The notes beneath the pieces are model-generated. The model had not been told where the DNA came from. It ran no database searches and saw only the letters and a list, made by a program, of their open reading frames with translations. A stretch of DNA of 24,824 bases from a virus. Every line of letters begins with the position of its first letter. Within the stretch, counting starts at the first letter, position 1. Below are positions 1 to 20,450 of the stretch, piece by piece. The position numbers were made by a program, and so were the translations under genes. The stretch lies in IMG/VR virus record IMGVR_UViG_3300026182_000008, positions 1 to 24,824 of that record, one strand, 5' to 3'.

Positions 1-273
1 TCTCATATCTCTATAAGGTGAAACTAATGATACCAATACTAAATAACCTTTATCATCCATTACTTTTGCCATATCGATAGCAAATTGAATATTCTTTCTA
101 CGACCTTTTTCTGAATAATCTTTATTGTCAACAGCCTCTCGTAAATCATCACCGTCAATATGCACAATTCTATGTGGATGGATTTTCATAAATCCAACTA
201 ATTTGTCGTCTATGAATCTATTTGTTAATGTGGTCTTGCCTGAACCAGGTTGACCTGTGAACCATAAAACCAT
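1..273 (-). CDS. cysC: Adenylylsulfate (APS) kinase, CysC-like, N-terminal part (cut by window edge)
   Basis: The first 91 codons of a gene that continues past the left edge. CysC enzymes phosphorylate adenylylsulfate (APS) with ATP to give PAPS, the activated sulfate donor. The translation begins MVLWFTGQPGSGKTT, a Walker A P-loop (GQPGSGKTT, residues 7-15). It continues with HIDGDDLRE, matching the family's DGDN/DxR nucleotide-site motif, then YSEKGRRKNI and LVSPYRDMR, which align in order with the family's SEEDRxENI and ISPYRxDR blocks. The ATG at 273 has AAAGG about 9 bases upstream. It is the last gene visible in the tail operon, after the lysine-rich gene. An APS kinase among virion genes is unexpected, so it is probably an auxiliary metabolic gene or serves a modification pathway. 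The family call is strong; the physiological role is inference. The lid and C-terminal half are not visible. Confidence 0.85.
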   Translation of the reverse strand, partial: MVLWFTGQPGSGKTTLTNRFIDDKLVGFMKIHPHRIVHIDGDDLREAVDNKDYSEKGRRKNIQFAIDMAKVMDDKGYLVLVSLVSPYRDMR

Positions 274-9233: not shown

Positions 9234-12200
9234 CTATATTATCTGACTGGCAATTTTACCAGTATTAGTTTTTGTTTGAGATGTTGCAAGTGCTATAGGT
9301 CCTTGTTCACCCATTAATCCAATTAACCTTTCTAACTTCTGATTAGTTTCATCAAGTTTAATTTCAACTGGGTTTCCTTCTGCTGAGGCCGTTTCTTCTC
9401 CACCACCACCACCTAATACTGATCCACCTAACATTCCAAGTGCTGCTAATGTCATCAATACAGGAAGTGCTGGTAATAATGCCAGTGCTCCAAGTGCCAT
9501 CGCTGCCATACTCCATCCCAATGCAGTAAATGCTCCTGCTAATACAAATATTGCCTTTGCCATTGGAGCTAATGTCATAATTGTTGGTAAAAATGAACCT
9601 AATCCTTGTGCTAACATATCAAATCCCTTACCAATGGCTTGAATTGCAACTCCCAATACAAGTAATGCTGCTGCCATTATCAACATAGCTCCTGCACCTG
9701 CCAATATAGCAACTGCTCCAACACCACTCATCATTATCGCTCCGATGGCTGCTAATACTAACACTAATCCAAGTAAAGCTACTCCGGCCTTAGCCATAGC
9801 CCCCCAACTTACTTTTCCAAATTCTATTAATGCCTTTGCAGTTACCCATAATGCGGCTGCTATTATCAATAATGCGGCTGCACCAGCGAGTGCTTTCTTT
9901 GCGTCAAATTTTTCAAACATACCACCAAGTGGTCCTTTACCTTTACCGCCACCTTTTTTACCTGGTGCTGGTTTTTTAACCGATTTAGTTTTATCTGCTC
10001 TCTTTCCAAATCTTTTATCTGGTTTACCACTCTTTGTCAAAGGTACATCATCACCGCCCATACCCACCATTTTCTTTGCCACACCTGTCATTTTTGAACC
10101 CATAGAAAAAATCATATCTTTCATCTTGCCAAGGGCTCCCATAATACCACCACTCATCAAATTTGTTCTAAATAAGAGTGCCGCTCCCGCCGCAAACATT
10201 ATTACATCACCTAATCCAACTCCCATAACATTTGCTTCATTTAACCATTCTATAATATCAGCAAACAAACCAAGTACATAAACTAAAACACCAGCAATTA
10301 ATAAAAATGGTGAAAGTAATCCAATGGCTAATGGTAAAAGTGCCTTAAAAATACCAAGAAATCTTGTCCAAATTTCTCCTATCTTTTTCATAACATCTGC
10401 TATTAAATCTTGTCTTTTCTTCTGTGCAGTAGTCATATTATTAAGTTTATCTTGGTTAGTTATCATCTTACCCATTTCAGAAACTTCCATTCCAAATGCT
10501 GCTGCTAATGATTTCCGTTGAACTATATTCAATGCATTCCAATCTGATGCACTACCAATTTGTTTAGTAATCTCTTTTTGCATTCCTTCTAAATCACCAG
10601 CTAATGCTAATTCTCGTGCCTTATCTGTATTGATATTACGACCAAGTAACATAGACGCTTCCATTTGTGCGTTTATAGATGTTTCAAAATCTAATAAACT
10701 ATCTGCCATGCTTTCAACAGTTGACATGCTCAAACCAAGTTTTCTGGCTGCTATCGCTGCTTTAAATACGTTTTGTCCACCATCTTTTGCAAATCCAGCA
10801 AATGATTCACTTGAACCTGCAACATCTTCCATAATCTTTGCTGGTGCCACTCCATTTGCCTGTGATAATGCAGCCACGGAATCCAATTGAGCCCCAACAG
10901 CATCTATACTACTAGCACCTACGGCCATCATTTGTGCTGCCAATACTCCTGAACTTTCTCCACTAATACCATACATTGCATTTAATCTGGCCATTTCTTT
11001 AACATTTGATTGTGTAATTTGACCTATTCCACCCAAGTTATCCATAATACCTACGGCCCCAGCTTTAACATCTTCAGCACTTACACCAAGAAACTTCATT
11101 TCCATTGCAGTAGTATTAAGAATTTGTTGTAATCCTGCTGCTTCTGTAAATGTAAGTCCAAACTCTTTACGGGTTTCTGCCATTCCACCATAGAACATTT
11201 CTGCAACCTTCTTGGCTATCATCAGAATTGCCACTATTGCCAGTGCTGGTCCTAACATTCCACCCATTGATTTATTTATTCCAGTAAATACTTCTTTAAG
11301 TTTTGAAAATCCTTCTTCGAACTTATCAAACATAATTTTAAATTGACCTCGTGTTACCCTTCCATTTTTATCTGTCTTAGTCCACATCTTACTCATAGCT
11401 AATCCAAAGTTCATCGGATTATCTGGATCAAGAGAATCCTTCACATAATTAGTAAATGTATTAGTAAAATGCTCAGTTGCATCACCAATTCCTACTAACT
11501 CTGATACGAATTTGCCCACCTTGGTTTTTTCAAAGAATGTTTTCATTTTTTCAAATGGTTCTGCTATAAATGCTACGGTAGACGCTGTCTGGCCATGTAA
11601 CACTTTCTGTCTTTTTGCTTCTGCTGTTAAATTCTTTGCTTTGTCAACATTTTCTTGCGCTAATGCATTACTTTCCTTTTGCTCCTGCTTATTTTCTTCA
11701 ATCTGTTCCTTAGTCTTTTTCCACTCTTCACTACCCTTTTTTTGTGTTTTTAATGTTTCTTCTAATTGTTCCTGATCTGCCTTTAACGCTGGAATTATTT
11801 CCTTCTTAACATAATCTTTATATCTCTCTGCCTTTTTGAGTTGTTCATCCATTGATTTTGTCATATCCATAAATGTACCACTACCAATATTATCATAAGC
11901 TCCACCTAATGATATTGCATCATCAATCATTTTTCCTCCCATACTAACCATAGGAGTCATTGCCTGTGCCCATTTCTTTTGATTTTCAGTACCGTTATTT
12001 AATACGTCAGTTAACCTAACACCCCAATCATATATGCTCTGACCCGTATTTACTATTTGGAGTCTGTCCATTAAAAAGGATTTTTGAGCTACTCCTTGAG
12101 TATATAAATTTGAAGATAATTTAGTAGTCCATCCTACTTCTTCCTTCAACATATCCCCGATTTTTTCTTCGAGGTCGGCTTGAAGGGATGTTAAAGTATA

Positions 12201-12503
12201 TTTCTTCCCATCTTCTTTAGCCATTATTTTAGCGTGTTCGGCCTCCTCTTTCATCAAGGCCCTCTTTTCTTTCTTTAATTCTTTATACTTCTTAATATCT
12301 TCCGCAGTACCATTCGCGGCATCTTTCTTCGCCTTGGCTATCTCATCATCAATATTTAAAAGTCGTTGAGTTATTACCTCTTGACGACTTAATTCAGCAG
12401 TTACTTTTTTTTCTTCGGCAAGTTTTTCCATAGTAGGTATAGTAGTATTATCAATACCACCCCAATATATTTCTCTTTGTTGATCTGTTTTTTCTAACGC
12501 CAT
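9234..12503 (-). CDS. Tail tape measure protein
   Basis: A 1089-residue protein that sets tail length and is packed inside the tube. The layout is typical: charged coiled-coil stretches at about residues 25-120 and 215-300, a mixed centre, and strongly hydrophobic helical segments at about 411-440, 710-770 and 870-1030 (for example ALAGAAALLIIAAALWV). A Lys/Gly linker near 830-860 separates the last two. The C-terminus returns to a short amphipathic helix (LDETNQKLERLIGLM). No lysozyme or peptidase motif was seen. It stands downstream of the chaperone-type genes and upstream of baseplate genes, the standard place. The ATG at 12503 has no clear Shine-Dalgarno, and a TATAAATA octamer sits only 13 bases upstream. 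The call is strong from architecture and position. Confidence 0.9.
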   Translation of the reverse strand: MALEKTDQQREIYWGGIDNTTIPTMEKLAEEKKVTAELSRQEVITQRLLNIDDEIAKAKKDAANGTAEDIKKYKELKKEKRALMKEEAEHAKIMAKEDGKKYTLTSLQADLEEKIGDMLKEEVGWTTKLSSNLYTQGVAQKSFLMDRLQIVNTGQSIYDWGVRLTDVLNNGTENQKKWAQAMTPMVSMGGKMIDDAISLGGAYDNIGSGTFMDMTKSMDEQLKKAERYKDYVKKEIIPALKADQEQLEETLKTQKKGSEEWKKTKEQIEENKQEQKESNALAQENVDKAKNLTAEAKRQKVLHGQTASTVAFIAEPFEKMKTFFEKTKVGKFVSELVGIGDATEHFTNTFTNYVKDSLDPDNPMNFGLAMSKMWTKTDKNGRVTRGQFKIMFDKFEEGFSKLKEVFTGINKSMGGMLGPALAIVAILMIAKKVAEMFYGGMAETRKEFGLTFTEAAGLQQILNTTAMEMKFLGVSAEDVKAGAVGIMDNLGGIGQITQSNVKEMARLNAMYGISGESSGVLAAQMMAVGASSIDAVGAQLDSVAALSQANGVAPAKIMEDVAGSSESFAGFAKDGGQNVFKAAIAARKLGLSMSTVESMADSLLDFETSINAQMEASMLLGRNINTDKARELALAGDLEGMQKEITKQIGSASDWNALNIVQRKSLAAAFGMEVSEMGKMITNQDKLNNMTTAQKKRQDLIADVMKKIGEIWTRFLGIFKALLPLAIGLLSPFLLIAGVLVYVLGLFADIIEWLNEANVMGVGLGDVIMFAAGAALLFRTNLMSGGIMGALGKMKDMIFSMGSKMTGVAKKMVGMGGDDVPLTKSGKPDKRFGKRADKTKSVKKPAPGKKGGGKGKGPLGGMFEKFDAKKALAGAAALLIIAAALWVTAKALIEFGKVSWGAMAKAGVALLGLVLVLAAIGAIMMSGVGAVAILAGAGAMLIMAAALLVLGVAIQAIGKGFDMLAQGLGSFLPTIMTLAPMAKAIFVLAGAFTALGWSMAAMALGALALLPALPVLMTLAALGMLGGSVLGGGGGEETASAEGNPVEIKLDETNQKLERLIGLMGEQGPIALATSQTKTNTGKIASQII

Positions 12504-12572: not shown

Positions 12573-12812
12573 TTACCAACCCTTACGGGTTCCTGCGAAT
12601 TTTACTCCTCGTGTTTTTCCAGAACTTTTTAATGTTTTATCTAATTCTCTAACAGCTTTATCTGCATTACGAACTGCCTTTGCTAATCGTGGATTATCCT
12701 TTAAGGCCTTTTCCACTTTACCTACTCTCTTACTAACAATAGCTTGTAAAATTTTAGATAATATACCTTCTCTGAGTTGATCTTCTGTTAATTTATTTTT
12801 TGACGAAAACAT
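12573..12812 (-). CDS. Small basic helical protein of unknown function
   Basis: A 79-residue protein, mostly helical and strongly basic (many Lys/Arg, ending TRKGW). It has no membrane segment and no recognisable domain. The ATG at 12812 follows TAGGAGAATCAAA, a good Shine-Dalgarno at normal spacing, which supports a real gene. It lies between the assembly-chaperone ORFs and the tape measure, the spot where tail phages often place tape-measure partners, so a role in tail assembly is plausible but inferred only from position. Upstream DNA (12877-12887) holds a variant of the TATAAATATC element seen before other genes here. Confidence 0.75.
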   Translation of the reverse strand: MFSSKNKLTEDQLREGILSKILQAIVSKRVGKVEKALKDNPRLAKAVRNADKAVRELDKTLKSSGKTRGVKFAGTRKGW

Positions 12813-12904: not shown

Positions 12905-13144
12905 TTAGCCTCGGGGGATACCTGGTCGTGAAATACCAGATTTTTTCTTGGATGCTTTATCGTATTGTTTCTTTTCTTCTTCGTAGAATTTTGAGGCCGA
13001 TTGTATGTAAAATCGGCGCAGATAGGTTGGCATGTTATACACTTCTGTAAAGTTAAATCCTCCTTTCCCGTGGAAGCATAGGGAGAAGATTTGTGAGTGA
13101 ATTGCAGGCTTATCTTCTGCCCGCAGGCCAAAAAAACTCAACAT
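12905..13144 (-). CDS. Tail assembly chaperone second ORF (probable frameshift extension of the gp26-type gene)
   Basis: A 79-codon ORF overlapping the end of the upstream gene by 35 bases, in the +1 (equivalently -2) frame. Its ATG at 13144 directly follows an in-frame TAG and has no Shine-Dalgarno, so independent initiation looks poor. The overlap contains a run of seven T and a stem-loop. Slippage there would give a fused protein of about 327 residues. The translated part ends with MPTYLRRFYIQ and a Glu/Lys-rich helix (YEEEKKQYDKASKKK), the charged C-terminal style of tail assembly 'T' or E'-type extensions that bind the tape measure. An internal ATG at 13033 could start the conserved part, but the nearest AGGAGG is about 24 bases away. 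The 1.5-gene cassette just upstream of the tape measure region fits the lambda G/GT and P2 E/E' arrangement. The ORF is probably real; the mode of expression is inferred. Confidence 0.7.
   Translation of the reverse strand: MLSFFGLRAEDKPAIHSQIFSLCFHGKGGFNFTEVYNMPTYLRRFYIQSASKFYEEEKKQYDKASKKKSGISRPGIPRG
13103..13136 (-). other. Candidate programmed frameshift site: T7 run plus stem-loop
   Basis: On the coding strand the first ORF reads GAG TTT TTT TGG. Seven T (13136-13130) are followed by GGCC and then a hairpin: TGCGGGC (13125-13119) pairs with GCCTGCA (13109-13103) with one G-U pair. The 9-base loop contains the TAA stop of the first ORF. Re-pairing TTT on TTT forward by one or back by two joins the downstream ORF without a mismatch. 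A -1 slip would enter a different, implausible frame. Confidence 0.6.
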
Positions 13145-13889
13145 CTAATGGGATGTCCATCGTTGTATCTTCACCAGTTTGATCACTGGTAAAAGTAAAA
13201 GACATATCAACATCAGGTGTTATTTTTATAAGATATTCTCTAAATGAAAGAGAATCACGAGATAGTAATTCGTTCTCCACGAACTCACTAATTCGTTTTA
13301 GTGATGTATCTCCATTAACCGACACAATTGCCTTCTTCAACCGTGTTGTGATTTCTGCAGTAATACCACTATCTTTTGAGAATTTCTTGTATGCTTTTAA
13401 TTCAGCATCAATTTCTTTTTCTTCTTTATGTGTTAAAAGACGAAATAGAATTTTAACTTTTGCTGCTGGCAGTTCAAATTCAAATTCATTCTTACCAGCC
13501 TTAAACAATTTTGAATCAATCTTCTTATCTGTAATTTCAGTTAAATCAAAAGTTTCCTCTTGTTTTTCTCCAGTAGATGGATCTGTAAGTTGAACGGTAT
13601 AATCTTTACCATACCCAAGTATTCTTGTTGCAATCATAATTGCATTTTTATCACCTAACAATAAATCATTGAGTGATACCTTTTCATCTACAATAACAGA
13701 TTCCAACAGTCTATCTAAAACAATTCCTTTTTGAATTAGATTACGAGAAGTTAAAATATCTTCTTCTTTTGCGGTCATATACTTTAACTCAATTGTTCCA
13801 CCTGCCAGCGGTGAATCTTTTGAATAAAGTAATCCCTTAGAAGGCAAATCAACTACCTCTGTTGGAAACTGGCGTTTATCTTCTGCCAT
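13110..13889 (-). CDS. T4 gp26-type baseplate/tail assembly protein (tail assembly chaperone)
   Basis: A 259-residue soluble protein. Its N-terminus (FPTEVVDLPSKGLLY, then GTIELKYMTAKEEDILTS and LLLGDKNAIMIATRILGYG) matches the pattern I know for T4 gp26-like baseplate hub assembly proteins of T4-type and cyanophages (Pfam T4_baseplate, from memory). The rest is a predicted beta/alpha domain ending DVEFFWPAGRR. T4 gp26 itself is shorter (about 208 residues). By position, between tube and tape measure and with an overlapping second ORF, it fills the place of lambda gpG or P2 gpE, so it may act as a tape-measure chaperone and not as a structural part. The ATG at 13889 has an excellent AAAGGAG site. 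A terminator hairpin lies just upstream, so it probably has its own promoter in 13890-13959, where I see no clear consensus. Confidence 0.8.
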   Translation of the reverse strand: MAEDKRQFPTEVVDLPSKGLLYSKDSPLAGGTIELKYMTAKEEDILTSRNLIQKGIVLDRLLESVIVDEKVSLNDLLLGDKNAIMIATRILGYGKDYTVQLTDPSTGEKQEETFDLTEITDKKIDSKLFKAGKNEFEFELPAAKVKILFRLLTHKEEKEIDAELKAYKKFSKDSGITAEITTRLKKAIVSVNGDTSLKRISEFVENELLSRDSLSFREYLIKITPDVDMSFTFTSDQTGEDTTMDIPLDVEFFWPAGRR

Positions 13890-14007: not shown

Positions 14008-14187
14008 TTATGCTTTTCCAACAGCGTCACGAACTCCGTACAAACCAAATGCCGCGAGTAATGTCCAAACGACTTCAGGTACTGCTTCTACAACACCTAC
14101 TGCTTGTAATACACCAACAACACCAGCAACTACTGATGTCCATACTGTCTTTGATTTCCACCAAGCTTTATCTGCTATGATTGCCAT
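14008..14187 (-). CDS. Small hydrophobic membrane protein (holin-like by shape)
   Basis: A 59-residue ORF: a short charged head (MAIIADKAWWKSKTVW), a hydrophobic stretch at about residues 16-33 (VWTSVVAGVVGVLQAVGV), a short PEVV turn, and a second hydrophobic stretch at about 39-50 (VVWTLLAAFGLY) ending VRDAVGKA. This suggests one or two membrane helices. A clean AAGGAGT site lies 7 bases before the ATG, and the gene sits 30 bases after the tube gene and just before a hairpin terminator, so it is surely expressed with the tube. Small two-helix phage proteins of this type are often called holin-like, but nothing proves a lysis role and no endolysin is next to it. It could also be a minor virion or membrane-interaction protein. 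Confidence 0.75.
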   Translation of the reverse strand: MAIIADKAWWKSKTVWTSVVAGVVGVLQAVGVVEAVPEVVWTLLAAFGLYGVRDAVGKA

Positions 14188-14217: not shown

Positions 14218-14709
14218 TTAGAACTGTAATATTGCGTAATCGTATCTAAGTGTCAAAGTTACATCAACTGGGTCTGTAGTATTTGCCCAATCTAAATCAC
14301 CAAATGTTGCGTTAGTAATCCAAGTACCTTTAAGTGTCCACTCTTCAACCTTATCACCTACGGGTCCTAATACATTAATTGTTACATCTTTTTTATAAAA
14401 ATCTGAGTATCCATCTCTACCTGTTACGGATTCATGAGATAACCGAACCCATTCCATACATGCCTGTGCGGCTGATGGAACAACAGGATCATAAAGTGTA
14501 ATTTCTAATTCTTCCCATGCTCCCTTACCTTTAACATATCGTTTAACATTGATGTGGTCAAGTTCAATCGTTTCAAAAGCGATTGTAGGTCTGTTAGCTG
14601 TCTTAATAAGATAAGCTGGAATACCTTCAATGTACATGATGTACCGATTTTTAGTTTTCGGTTCAAACGGTGTGAACATTATTTCAGAAGGATCTAATAA
14701 GTCTGGCAT
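14218..14709 (-). CDS. 19: Tail tube protein (T4 gp19 family)
   Basis: A 163-residue protein, the same length as T4 gp19, which stacks as hexameric rings to form the tube that carries DNA. Family marks: an N-terminal PFEPKTKNRYIMYIEGIPAY segment, the TIAFETIELDHINVKRYVKG strand-loop region, WEELEITLYDPVVPSAAQAC, and a C-terminal KGTWITNATFGDLDW segment ending in a beta strand. The ATG at 14709 follows GGAG. It is encoded right after the sheath but separated from it by a terminator and a 124-base leader, so it has its own transcription start, as expected for a high-copy protein. The leader holds plus-oriented TATAAATA elements at 14741 and 14816. Confidence 0.93.
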   Translation of the reverse strand: MPDLLDPSEIMFTPFEPKTKNRYIMYIEGIPAYLIKTANRPTIAFETIELDHINVKRYVKGKGAWEELEITLYDPVVPSAAQACMEWVRLSHESVTGRDGYSDFYKKDVTINVLGPVGDKVEEWTLKGTWITNATFGDLDWANTTDPVDVTLTLRYDYAILQF

Positions 14710-17798: not shown

Positions 17799-20450
17799 TT
17801 AATTCACTTTTTTCTTTAGATCTTCTACCTCTTGTTTTAATTCTTTAATTGACTCAATTAATAATGGAATGATTCGTTTATAATCAACTCCTAAGTAACC
17901 ATTTGTTCTTTCTATTACAATTTCGGGATGTACTTTTTGAATTTCTTGTGCCACAACCCCAATATCGTGTCCTCTTTCTTGTGCCCATTCAGGTGATTCT
18001 TCATTCCAATCAAATTCATAACCACTTATTTGACCAACTTTATCTAATGGGTCTTGAATAACTTGTAAATTATCTTTAAGTCTTTCATCAGAAGATGCAT
18101 ATGCTACAACATCACCACCCGCGTGAATATTTTCAGCAACACCAACACCACCATCAACTATCAGTGCTCCTGATGTTTTGGTTGTTGAAGTTGTTGTTGC
18201 ATTTATATTGATAGTATTAAAGTTTACATCTGAAGTTGCAGTTAATCCTTGATTTATTGCCTTAACTGATGCAAGACTTGCACATTCACTATCCATTAAC
18301 GCACCTGCTGCAGTTACATTTGTTGTATCTGTTACATCTGCACTTGTTTCAACAGTATCTAATAAAGTTTCTTGGGCATCTGTCATTAATCTTTTGTTAG
18401 TTGCATCTGTAAAATTAGTAGTTGTAAATGTAGGTGTTGCTCCACTAACAACTGATTGGTCTAATGCTTTTACATCTGCGATACTTGTTAATTCACTATC
18501 CATTAACGCACCTGCTGCAGTTACATTGGTTGCATCGGTTACATCTGCAGAAGCTTCTATTGCATCTAATTTACTATGGTCTCCACTTTCAAAAGGAACT
18601 GATGTGGTTCCGCCAATTGTTAATGCGTCGGTTTCGAGTGTTCCGTCAACATCTACATCACCACTAATGTCAAGACTTGTGGCTTCAATTTCACCACTTG
18701 CTTTCATTTTAATTACAGGAGTTTCATTGTTAGTCTTAAAATGTATTTCATTATCAGTTGAGAAAATAATTTGATTATGAGCATCTCTACCAACAACTAA
18801 AGCATCATTCAATATAGAAGTAAGTGTTGTTTGAGTAGCATCTATATCTATATCAGCGGTGTTTAGTGTTAAACCATTTCCTGCTGTAACTGCACTTGTA
18901 ACTGTAAGTGTATCACCACTTACTGCCGTAGTAATTCCTGTTCCACCAGCAATTGTAAGTGTATCAGTTGCAGTATTTGCAGTTGTAGTTCCACTATCAC
19001 CTGCAACTACATCCCATAAATCTTGGTCACCAGTATTTGTATTACTATTAGTACCTGTAATATCACTTGTAAACGCCACAGTACCATCATCATTTTGTAA
19101 TGTAATAGTTCTATCTGCTGTTGGGTCTACAACGGTTAAAGTTGTTTCATGTCCATCTGAAGTAGCTCCCTCAAAAATAACTGAACTCGTTACTACAAGA
19201 CTTGATGCTGATATAAAAGTTTGTGTACCCGCAACATCTATATTTTCAACTTTTAATGTTCCTGTACTTGGATTATAAGTAAATGCCCCTGTATCGTCTA
19301 ATAAAGCATTTGATTCATTGTGTAGTGTAATAGGAAAGTTTGTATTTGCTGTACTATCCGAAACAGTTACGGTACTTGCTAATGTCGCAGTTGCTGCATT
19401 TCCACTTGTTCCTGCATCCATTTCATCAGTTTGTGTTGTAACGAATGTGTGTATTTGGTCTGCCGTAGCTACACCAGTTCCACTATTTGCTATAGCTGCC
19501 GTACTTAATACTGCACTTGTTCCTAATCCTAAAGTTGTTCTTGCGTTAGATGCGGCTGCGTCATCTACAAGTGATGCCCCAAAGGTTGAAATTGTTGTAC
19601 TTGCAGGTAATGATAGCGTTTTAATATCTGCATCTACTTCACTATCCATCAATGCTCCAGCACTTGTTACATTGGTCGTATCAGTTACATCTGCACCTGC
19701 CTCTACAGAAACACCACCAATTGTTAATGCATCTGTTTCTACAGTTCCATCAAAATAAGCATCTTTAAATTCTAAAGCATCTGTACCTAAATCTACAATA
19801 GCATTTGAAGATGGTGTTAAAGCTCCATCAACAAGAGTAAGTTGGTCTTCACCACCTGCTCTAAATATAATATTATTATCGGTAGCAAAATCTATATCAT
19901 TATCTGCATCTCTACCGACTACTAAACCTGTATTTAATACAGAAGTGATAGTTGTTTGTGCTGCTGTTACTGCAACATCATCAGCGTTTGCAGTTATACC
20001 ATCTCCACCAATTACATTCATAACTCCACTTGTGGCAGTCATTCCTGCTCCTGCTAATCCTGTGGCTACACCATCGGAAAGGTGAGCGTCGTCTACTGCA
20101 TCTGCGGCTAACTCATCACTATCAACTGCATCATCAGCCAAATGTTCATTATCAATTGAACCTGCCGCATAGTGTTCTGAATTAATCTCATCATCACCTA
20201 TCATTGCGTTAACAACTTCGCCTGTTCCAATGGATATTGTTACATCACCTGTTGCCCCACTAACATCAATACCACTTCCTGCAACTACTGTAGATACATA
20301 ATTTCCTGTTGTGTGTGTACCTAATGTTATTAAATTATTTAATGAAGTAGCTCCTGTACCACCTTGTGCTACTGCTAACGGGCTATCTAATGTTAATGAT
20401 GATAATACGGCTGAACTGCCGGATGATATTAATTTTTTCCAACTTGGCAT
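17799..20450 (-). CDS. Tail fibre protein with C-terminal peptidase S74 intramolecular chaperone
   Basis: An 883-residue trimeric fibre. The N-terminus (MPSWKKLISSGSSAVLSSL) is shared with the next fibre gene upstream and probably anchors to the virion; GGTGATSLNN follows, a common fibre motif. The shaft is a long chain of Ala/Thr/Asp/Val-rich beta repeats, including three copies of a (A)DVTDTTNVT-AGALMDSE unit and two versions of a VLNxxLVVGRDAxNxIxF(A/S)TDN unit. From about residue 780 is an S74 chaperone: ASSDERLKDN has Ser787 and Lys792 at the spacing of the catalytic dyad of endosialidase-type chaperones. FDWNEES, IGVVAQE, VDYKRIIPLLIESI and a final coiled coil follow. Such domains trimerise the fibre and then cut themselves off. 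The ATG at 20450 follows AGGAG. A receptor-binding role is likely; the receptor is unknown. Confidence 0.9.
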   Translation of the reverse strand: MPSWKKLISSGSSAVLSSLTLDSPLAVAQGGTGATSLNNLITLGTHTTGNYVSTVVAGSGIDVSGATGDVTISIGTGEVVNAMIGDDEINSEHYAAGSIDNEHLADDAVDSDELAADAVDDAHLSDGVATGLAGAGMTATSGVMNVIGGDGITANADDVAVTAAQTTITSVLNTGLVVGRDADNDIDFATDNNIIFRAGGEDQLTLVDGALTPSSNAIVDLGTDALEFKDAYFDGTVETDALTIGGVSVEAGADVTDTTNVTSAGALMDSEVDADIKTLSLPASTTISTFGASLVDDAAASNARTTLGLGTSAVLSTAAIANSGTGVATADQIHTFVTTQTDEMDAGTSGNAATATLASTVTVSDSTANTNFPITLHNESNALLDDTGAFTYNPSTGTLKVENIDVAGTQTFISASSLVVTSSVIFEGATSDGHETTLTVVDPTADRTITLQNDDGTVAFTSDITGTNSNTNTGDQDLWDVVAGDSGTTTANTATDTLTIAGGTGITTAVSGDTLTVTSAVTAGNGLTLNTADIDIDATQTTLTSILNDALVVGRDAHNQIIFSTDNEIHFKTNNETPVIKMKASGEIEATSLDISGDVDVDGTLETDALTIGGTTSVPFESGDHSKLDAIEASADVTDATNVTAAGALMDSELTSIADVKALDQSVVSGATPTFTTTNFTDATNKRLMTDAQETLLDTVETSADVTDTTNVTAAGALMDSECASLASVKAINQGLTATSDVNFNTININATTTSTTKTSGALIVDGGVGVAENIHAGGDVVAYASSDERLKDNLQVIQDPLDKVGQISGYEFDWNEESPEWAQERGHDIGVVAQEIQKVHPEIVIERTNGYLGVDYKRIIPLLIESIKELKQEVEDLKKKVN
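18284..19695 (-). repeat. Three copies of a 59-base fibre-shaft repeat
   Basis: Copies lie at 18284-18342, 18491-18549 and 19637-19695. The first two are almost identical in DNA; the third keeps the protein motif with many silent changes. They encode DVTD(T/A)TNVT(A/S)AGALMDSE. Recombination between the first two would remove about 207 bases in frame. Confidence 0.8.

Follow-up and report, generated by a model that had tools for sequence, protein, structure and literature searches.

A gp26-type gene and the second ORF at its end

Frameshifted tail chaperones are central to phage tail building, and the locus analyzed here raises the question of how a short ORF that overlaps the end of a T4 gp26-type gene comes to be translated. 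The DNA under study (the window) comes from a marine virus and is the IMG/VR record IMGVR_UViG_3300026182_000008, 24,824 bases long. On its minus strand, ORF1 (13110–13889; 259 aa) is followed by ORF2 (12905–13135), whose translation begins FFGLRAEDKPAIHSQIF. The pair (12905–13889) lies between a gp19-type tail tube gene (14218–14709, minus strand; PF06841, phrog_4542) and the gene for a tape measure protein of 1089 aa (9234–12503, minus strand; phrog_4372, 5.8e-05), and ORFs of 59 aa and 79 aa intervene between the pair and these two genes.

The 3' end of ORF1 reads GAG TTT TTT TGG CCT GCG GGC AGA AGA TAA. The T7 within it (TTT TTT T, 13136–13130, minus strand; U7 in the mRNA), which is followed by GG, is the sole run of seven or more T on the minus strand of the whole window, and the base before it, the last of the GAG codon at 13137–13139, is not T. 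The ORF1 stop codon, TAA (13110–13112), where the zero frame ends to give the short form, begins 18 bases 3' of the run, and these positions match the distance claimed in the original prediction. ORF2 runs to 12905 in the +1 (equivalently −2) frame, which opens at an ATG (13142–13144, minus strand) directly after a TAG; this is the sole in-frame ATG upstream of the run. We looked for a Shine–Dalgarno (SD) site at this ATG and at ATG 13033, and neither has one; SD sites of the AGGAG/GGAG type are present at ORF1, at the tube and sheath genes, and at the gene for the 79-aa protein. The second ORF is thus confirmed to lie in the +1/−2 frame without a ribosome site of its own, as had been predicted, and ATG 13144 is probably not its start.

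The −1 frame of the window is likewise open past the ORF1 stop (74 codons versus 68). Reading the locus in that frame, however, gave 0 bits of homology compared with 100 and a nonsynonymous/synonymous ratio (N/S) of 8.8, that is, no protein-level selection. The −1 reading was rejected on these grounds, and the +1/−2 assignment therefore stands. A second ORF in the −1 frame at a canonical heptamer (X XXY YYZ) is found neither in the window nor in the 153 relatives described below that share its +1/−2 relation; the base before the run is other than T in 152 of the 153.

ORF1 and ORF2 as probable parts of a tail assembly chaperone

ORF1 matched PF12322 (T4_baseplate) with 35.1 bits, above the cut-off of 24.5, and phrog_150 at 1.6e-11, as expected of the gp26 family. 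Its direct profile match to T4 gp26 is weak (E 0.018), and the link to T4 gp26 runs through PF12322 and a cyanophage step, in which profile comparison of the ORF1 alignment with the cyanophage gp26 alignment gave 7.5e-10. ORF2 is homologous to small cyanophage ORFs annotated as gp51 (hhalign, 6.7e-8) and also matched phrog_634 weakly. The AlphaFold2 model, which covers ORF1 alone (pLDDT 90.6), matched predicted baseplate-hub proteins of T4-like phages with E values down to 1e-20. When the PDB was searched with this model, the HK97 tail assembly chaperone gp14 (2OB9) ranked first and fourth, at non-significant E values of 1.1 and 1.8. Homology assigns ORF1 to the tail assembly chaperones (TACs) of the T4 gp26 type, as the short form TAC-N, and identifies ORF2 as the C-domain, TAC-C; a shift between them would make the long form, TAC-NC, predicted at about 327 aa for +1 and 328 aa for −2.

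The run and the frame relation are conserved and under selection

All 80 viral loci closest to ORF1 have the slippery site and an identical frame relation. Four further searches, clustered at below 90% ORF1 identity, yielded 222 sequences with an FF or FL site; assigned by homology (a longest-open-frame criterion misassigns 20 relatives), ORF2 lies in the +1/−2 frame in 153, in the −1 frame in 67, and behind a separate start in 2. Among the 153, the sites are TTT TTT TGG (91), TTT TTT TAC (30), TTT CTT TGG (22), TTC TTT TGG (3), and seven rarer forms, and nearly all have TTT TTT T with at most one base changed. The T7 run and the frame relation, two of the features that the original prediction proposed to test for conservation, are thus seen in divergent relatives, the latter in 153/153. 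The frame relation is kept in Bacillus phage SP-15, Listeria phage LIS04, and Streptococcus phage GXN1 (about 30% identical), and all seven matching contigs from bacterial metagenome-assembled genomes (MAGs) keep ORF2 in the +1/−2 frame behind the run. Relatives found in bacterial bins (L438–L444) are mostly labeled as Bacteroidota (Winogradskyella, Flavobacteriales, Saprospiraceae), which hints at the hosts of the window's phage group.

We then compared the codons at the site with codon usage within the bodies of the same genes. The collection was searched with degenerate, back-translated patterns, so the search itself did not force the synonymous sites. Codon 1 of the run is TTT rather than TTC in 148:5 relatives and codon 2 in 128:0, compared with 1156:332 (about 78:22) in the gene bodies (p = 2e-10 and 7e-14, respectively), and Asn, Ser, and Asp codons preceding the run end in C rather than T in 60:0, compared with 1095:4131 (21% C; p = 7e-41); the relatives share ancestry, so these p-values overstate independence and are to be read as orders of magnitude. 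Elsewhere, T7 occurs only four times in 112 kb of the relatives' ORF1 bodies. Among 40 close relatives, the N/S of ORF2 is 0.25 in the +1 frame versus 8–9 in the other two frames. Before the conserved core of ORF2, there is no ATG, GTG, or TTG in 49/153 relatives and no ATG in 106/153. The locus accordingly has a conserved slippery site, and its ORF2 is held in a fixed other frame, is selected as protein, and has no start of its own. Conservation of the run, the synonymous lock on it, and in-frame selection on ORF2 support the programmed +1/−2 frameshift of the original prediction. As a class of mechanism, programmed frameshifting is nearly certain on this sequence evidence, and very probably it is such a translational shift, in whichever direction, that makes TAC-NC.

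RNA elements near the run

A stem-loop (13103–13125, minus strand) with the arms TGCGGGC (13125–13119) and GCCTGCA (13109–13103) around the loop AGAAGATAA forms seven pairs and starts 4 nt after the run. The stop codon of ORF1 sits inside its 9-base loop, exactly the geometry that had been predicted. In sequences with T7-TGG and the spacing of the window (61 distinct), 67% of cells are paired, versus 52% (sd 1.7%) with shuffled partners and at most 51% with slid partners, and stem pairs 4 and 6 swap GC and CG. This covariation shows the stem-loop to be a genuine RNA structure in the clade of the window and its neighbors, where it probably acts as a frameshift stimulator. In the large T7-TAC clade, however, hairpin pairing gave no signal (38% vs. 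38%). A family-wide hairpin was therefore rejected, and the element cannot be essential to the family; a stimulating role is probable for the window's clade and its neighbors but not for the T7-TAC clade.

A possible mini-hairpin just 5' of the run (ACATC / CCATTA / GATGT, 13141–13156, minus strand) is a weak lead; in the +1 class, at least four contiguous pairs in one register upstream of the run were found in 42% of sequences, versus 20% after synonymous resampling. Three codons upstream of the run, GGG is strongly preferred (69/97 Gly). Many +1-class loci (e.g., L023, L059, and L161) also have a conserved SD-like GGAGG stretch about 22–23 nt before the run, which in many cases is not followed by a start codon. 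An SD stimulator for the +1 class was considered and rejected, since these strong matches, at about 22–23 nt, are too far away for the usual action, unlike the box of the −1 class described below.

Opposite shifts and losses within the gene family

In the −1 class, which comprises cyanophages, KVP40-like phages, and Ci1 (loci L168–L171 and L355–L434 for the cyanophage and KVP40-like members), the corresponding two Phe codons form the site T TTT TTC, and ORF2 lies in the −1 frame. The preceding base is T and codon 2 is TTC in 67/67. A GAGGG box stands 8 nt upstream of the heptamer in most of the 67 relatives, and the Glu codon is GAG rather than the alternative in 57:7. The combination of T TTT TTC and the GAGGG box is the textbook −1 design with its classic set of stimulators. 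The rules of the +1/−2 class mirror it: no T before the run, and codon 2 never TTC.

Two loci have lost the site. In the related loci L345 (2173–2540) and L350 (2213–2510), ORF2 starts at an ATG of its own, which lies in another frame, and is extended N-terminally by about 25 aa; their runs have eroded to TTC TTG TAT and TTC CTT TGG. Both are nested in the +1 group on the ORF1 tree, and such decay would be expected of a run with no function other than the shift. We read them as a second, independent loss of frameshifting besides that in T4. When the four states (+1/−2, −1, own start, and separate genes) were placed on the ORF1 tree, which is a quick tree with several long branches, four changes were needed, the minimum possible being three.

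We consider it fairly probable, though well short of secure, that homologous chaperone genes carry two opposite and mutually exclusive shifts at the same codons: −1 in cyanophages and their like, on U UUU UUC with a GAGGG box, and, in a large lineage that is mostly environmental, a forward +1 slip on tandem UUU with a guard base that forbids U before the run. This reading also includes at least two more conversions to separate genes. Isolates of the +1 lineage are phages of Flavobacterium, Bacillus, Listeria, and Streptococcus, and its MAG matches are mostly Bacteroidota; the isolate nearest to the group is Flavobacterium phage immuto, with the site TTT CTT TGG. If the reading is true, the family would be a natural experiment on what sets the direction of a frameshift. 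Matched homologous sites in opposite frames, together with descendants that no longer shift, make it testable which bases around a poly-U run set the direction.

How ribosomes may move at the run

We propose that a single message yields both a short and a long tail assembly chaperone at a fixed ratio. The majority of ribosomes would read through to the ORF1 stop and make TAC-N (259 aa). A minority would slip on U7 into the +1 frame, with the stem-loop 4 nt farther on as an aid in this clade, and append the TAC-C of about 68 residues to give TAC-NC. The likeliest move would be +1, the P-site tRNA-Phe on the first or second UUU re-pairing one base forward on UUU, and the non-U base before the run would prevent the rival tandem slip by −1. 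If lambda G/GT is a guide, TAC-N may coat the tape measure and TAC-NC recruit tube subunits, both being absent from the finished virion.

Given a frameshift, we judge +1 to be the likely direction, considerably likelier than −2, and any other movement very improbable. The +1 move is favored because P-site re-pairing one base forward (at codon 1 or 2) works at 153/153 sites, compared with 146/153 for two bases backward. The −2 alternative is a Mu-like shift: from the second UUU, tRNA-Phe in the P site would step two bases backward to UUU, with UUU again as the next codon, and the product would gain one Phe (EFFFGLR). It reaches the identical frame relation and is possible on U7 and in those 146 sites, but simple re-pairing is impossible at TTC TTT (5 relatives) and TTT CTA (2). 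Codon 2 tells against it as well: TTC there would spoil a forward slip and not a backward one, in which it changes only the re-read codon from UUU to UCU, yet TTC is never seen (0/128). On the other side, the third T of the run (T3), which a −2 slip needs, is T in 148/153 relatives; one +1 slip at codon 2 would not require such strong conservation, which leaves room for a −2 slip or for codon 1 as the place of a +1 slip. Moreover, a nearby downstream hairpin is the usual stimulator of backward shifts, and that of the window's clade covaries. All told, the −2 shift appears unlikely, but it is the alternative to be taken most seriously.

Far less probable is coupled re-initiation at ATG 13144 or Met 13033 after the end of ORF1, with ORF2 as a gene of its own. 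The window does have an ATG just 5' of the run, 47/153 relatives have one upstream in the frame of ORF2, and the split form exists both in L345/L350 and in T4 genes 26/51; the relatives that lack any start codon, or lack ATG, before the ORF2 core, and the window itself, without an SD site, do not fit. Re-initiation would also leave the synonymous lock on the run unexplained, and relatives in which ORF2 starts independently show decay of the run. Least probable is slippage of RNA polymerase joining the frames by the loss of one U or the gain of two: there is a homopolymer at the junction, kept at seven by the non-T base before it in 152/153, but T7 is short for RNA polymerase slippage, and TTT CTT T (23 relatives) and TTT CTA (2) break the run with the frame relation kept.

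Relation to known frameshifted chaperones

Like lambda G/GT, the locus would make a short and a long chaperone form from overlapping ORFs between the tube and tape measure genes; the slippery site, reportedly GGGAAAG in lambda, is a different one, and ORF1 belongs to a different, longer family than lambda G. Frameshifted chaperone pairs are widely known and shift −1, −2, or +1 depending on the phage (PMC5009743); that of lambda goes in the opposite direction (−1). In lambda it is G that contacts the tape measure, and T the tail tube protein (PMC5009743); the original prediction had the C-terminal tail as the putative tape-measure binder. The chaperone pair of phage Mu uses a −2 frameshift (PMC5009743) and likewise reaches the +1 frame, but a Mu-type −2 slip fails at 7/153 sites of the window's class. 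For a +1 slip of ribosomes, the bacterial prfB gene (CUU_UGA; PMC10885494) offers a parallel, since its CUU U re-pairing step would also apply to the 23 relatives that read TTT CTT T; the A site here is filled by a sense codon instead of a stop. A strong SD at a prfB-like short spacing was looked for in the +1 class, and none was found.

Several groups of T4-like phages are said, in the abstract of the 2022 study by Vladimirov and colleagues, to frameshift, and T4 reportedly uses the separate genes 26 and 51. Identification of TAC genes in T4-like phages is due to Vladimirov, Gautam, and Davidson (2022, Virology 566:9–15), cited in PMC12846349; the citing passage credits them with −1 poly-T sites in T4-like TAC-N genes. 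In those loci, too, a small TAC-C ORF comes after a gp26-type TAC-N and is reached by a frameshift, at sites called −1, unlike the +1/−2 sites of the window's clade. The cyanophage, KVP40-like, and Ci1 loci analyzed here bear out the −1 label. The original prediction that the arrangement was undescribed in T4-family gp26 genes was thus wrong in general, T4-like TAC genes, some of them frameshifted, having been published in 2022 (by the account in PMC12846349). We found no description of a +1/−2 shift in a gp26-type gene in the literature searched, which covered a minority of subscription journals; both the direction of the shift and the nucleotide signature that goes with it may be new.

T4 gp26 and gp51 are homologous to the pair. 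Both have the full PF12322 domain, and gp51 has about 48 residues more, forming the C-domain; the C-terminus of gp51 matched the cyanophage TAC-C ("gp51") ORFs at 2.8e-9. Because it combines a gp26-type domain with a C-domain that matches cyanophage TAC-C, T4 gp51 is best read as the TAC-NC long form expressed from its own gene, and ORF1 plus ORF2 would be the long form made by a shift. Unlike the window, T4 has genes 26 and 51 on opposite strands, so no frameshift is possible there; conversely, a T4-type arrangement of separate genes fails for the window, where ORF2 is the C-domain alone. The view put forward in the original prediction, that the gp26 family is the counterpart of the lambda G and P2 E chaperones, is supported, and TAC-N and TAC-NC would be expected to act as chaperones. 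Short second ORFs such as ORF2 are usually annotated as stray hypothetical genes or missed. Where environmental T4-like phages carry "gp26" and "gp51" annotations, a TAC-N and a frameshift-reached TAC-C are to be expected.

Neighboring genes

The 79-aa ORF between ORF2 and the tape measure gene (12573–12812, minus strand) encodes a basic protein, has a good SD site, and matched no family; Microcystis phage Mel-JY01 has an ORF of similar size at the same place (L162, 5039–5254). Between the tube gene and ORF1, the 59-aa ORF (14008–14187, minus strand) is hydrophobic and holin-like. Farther away, a gene at 17799–20450 (minus strand) encodes a fiber-like protein of 883 aa with a C-terminal Peptidase_S74 self-cleaving chaperone domain. 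At the window edge, which cuts it, the N-terminal part of an adenylylsulphate kinase (1–273, minus strand; PF01583, 56 bits) represents an auxiliary metabolic gene beside the tail genes.
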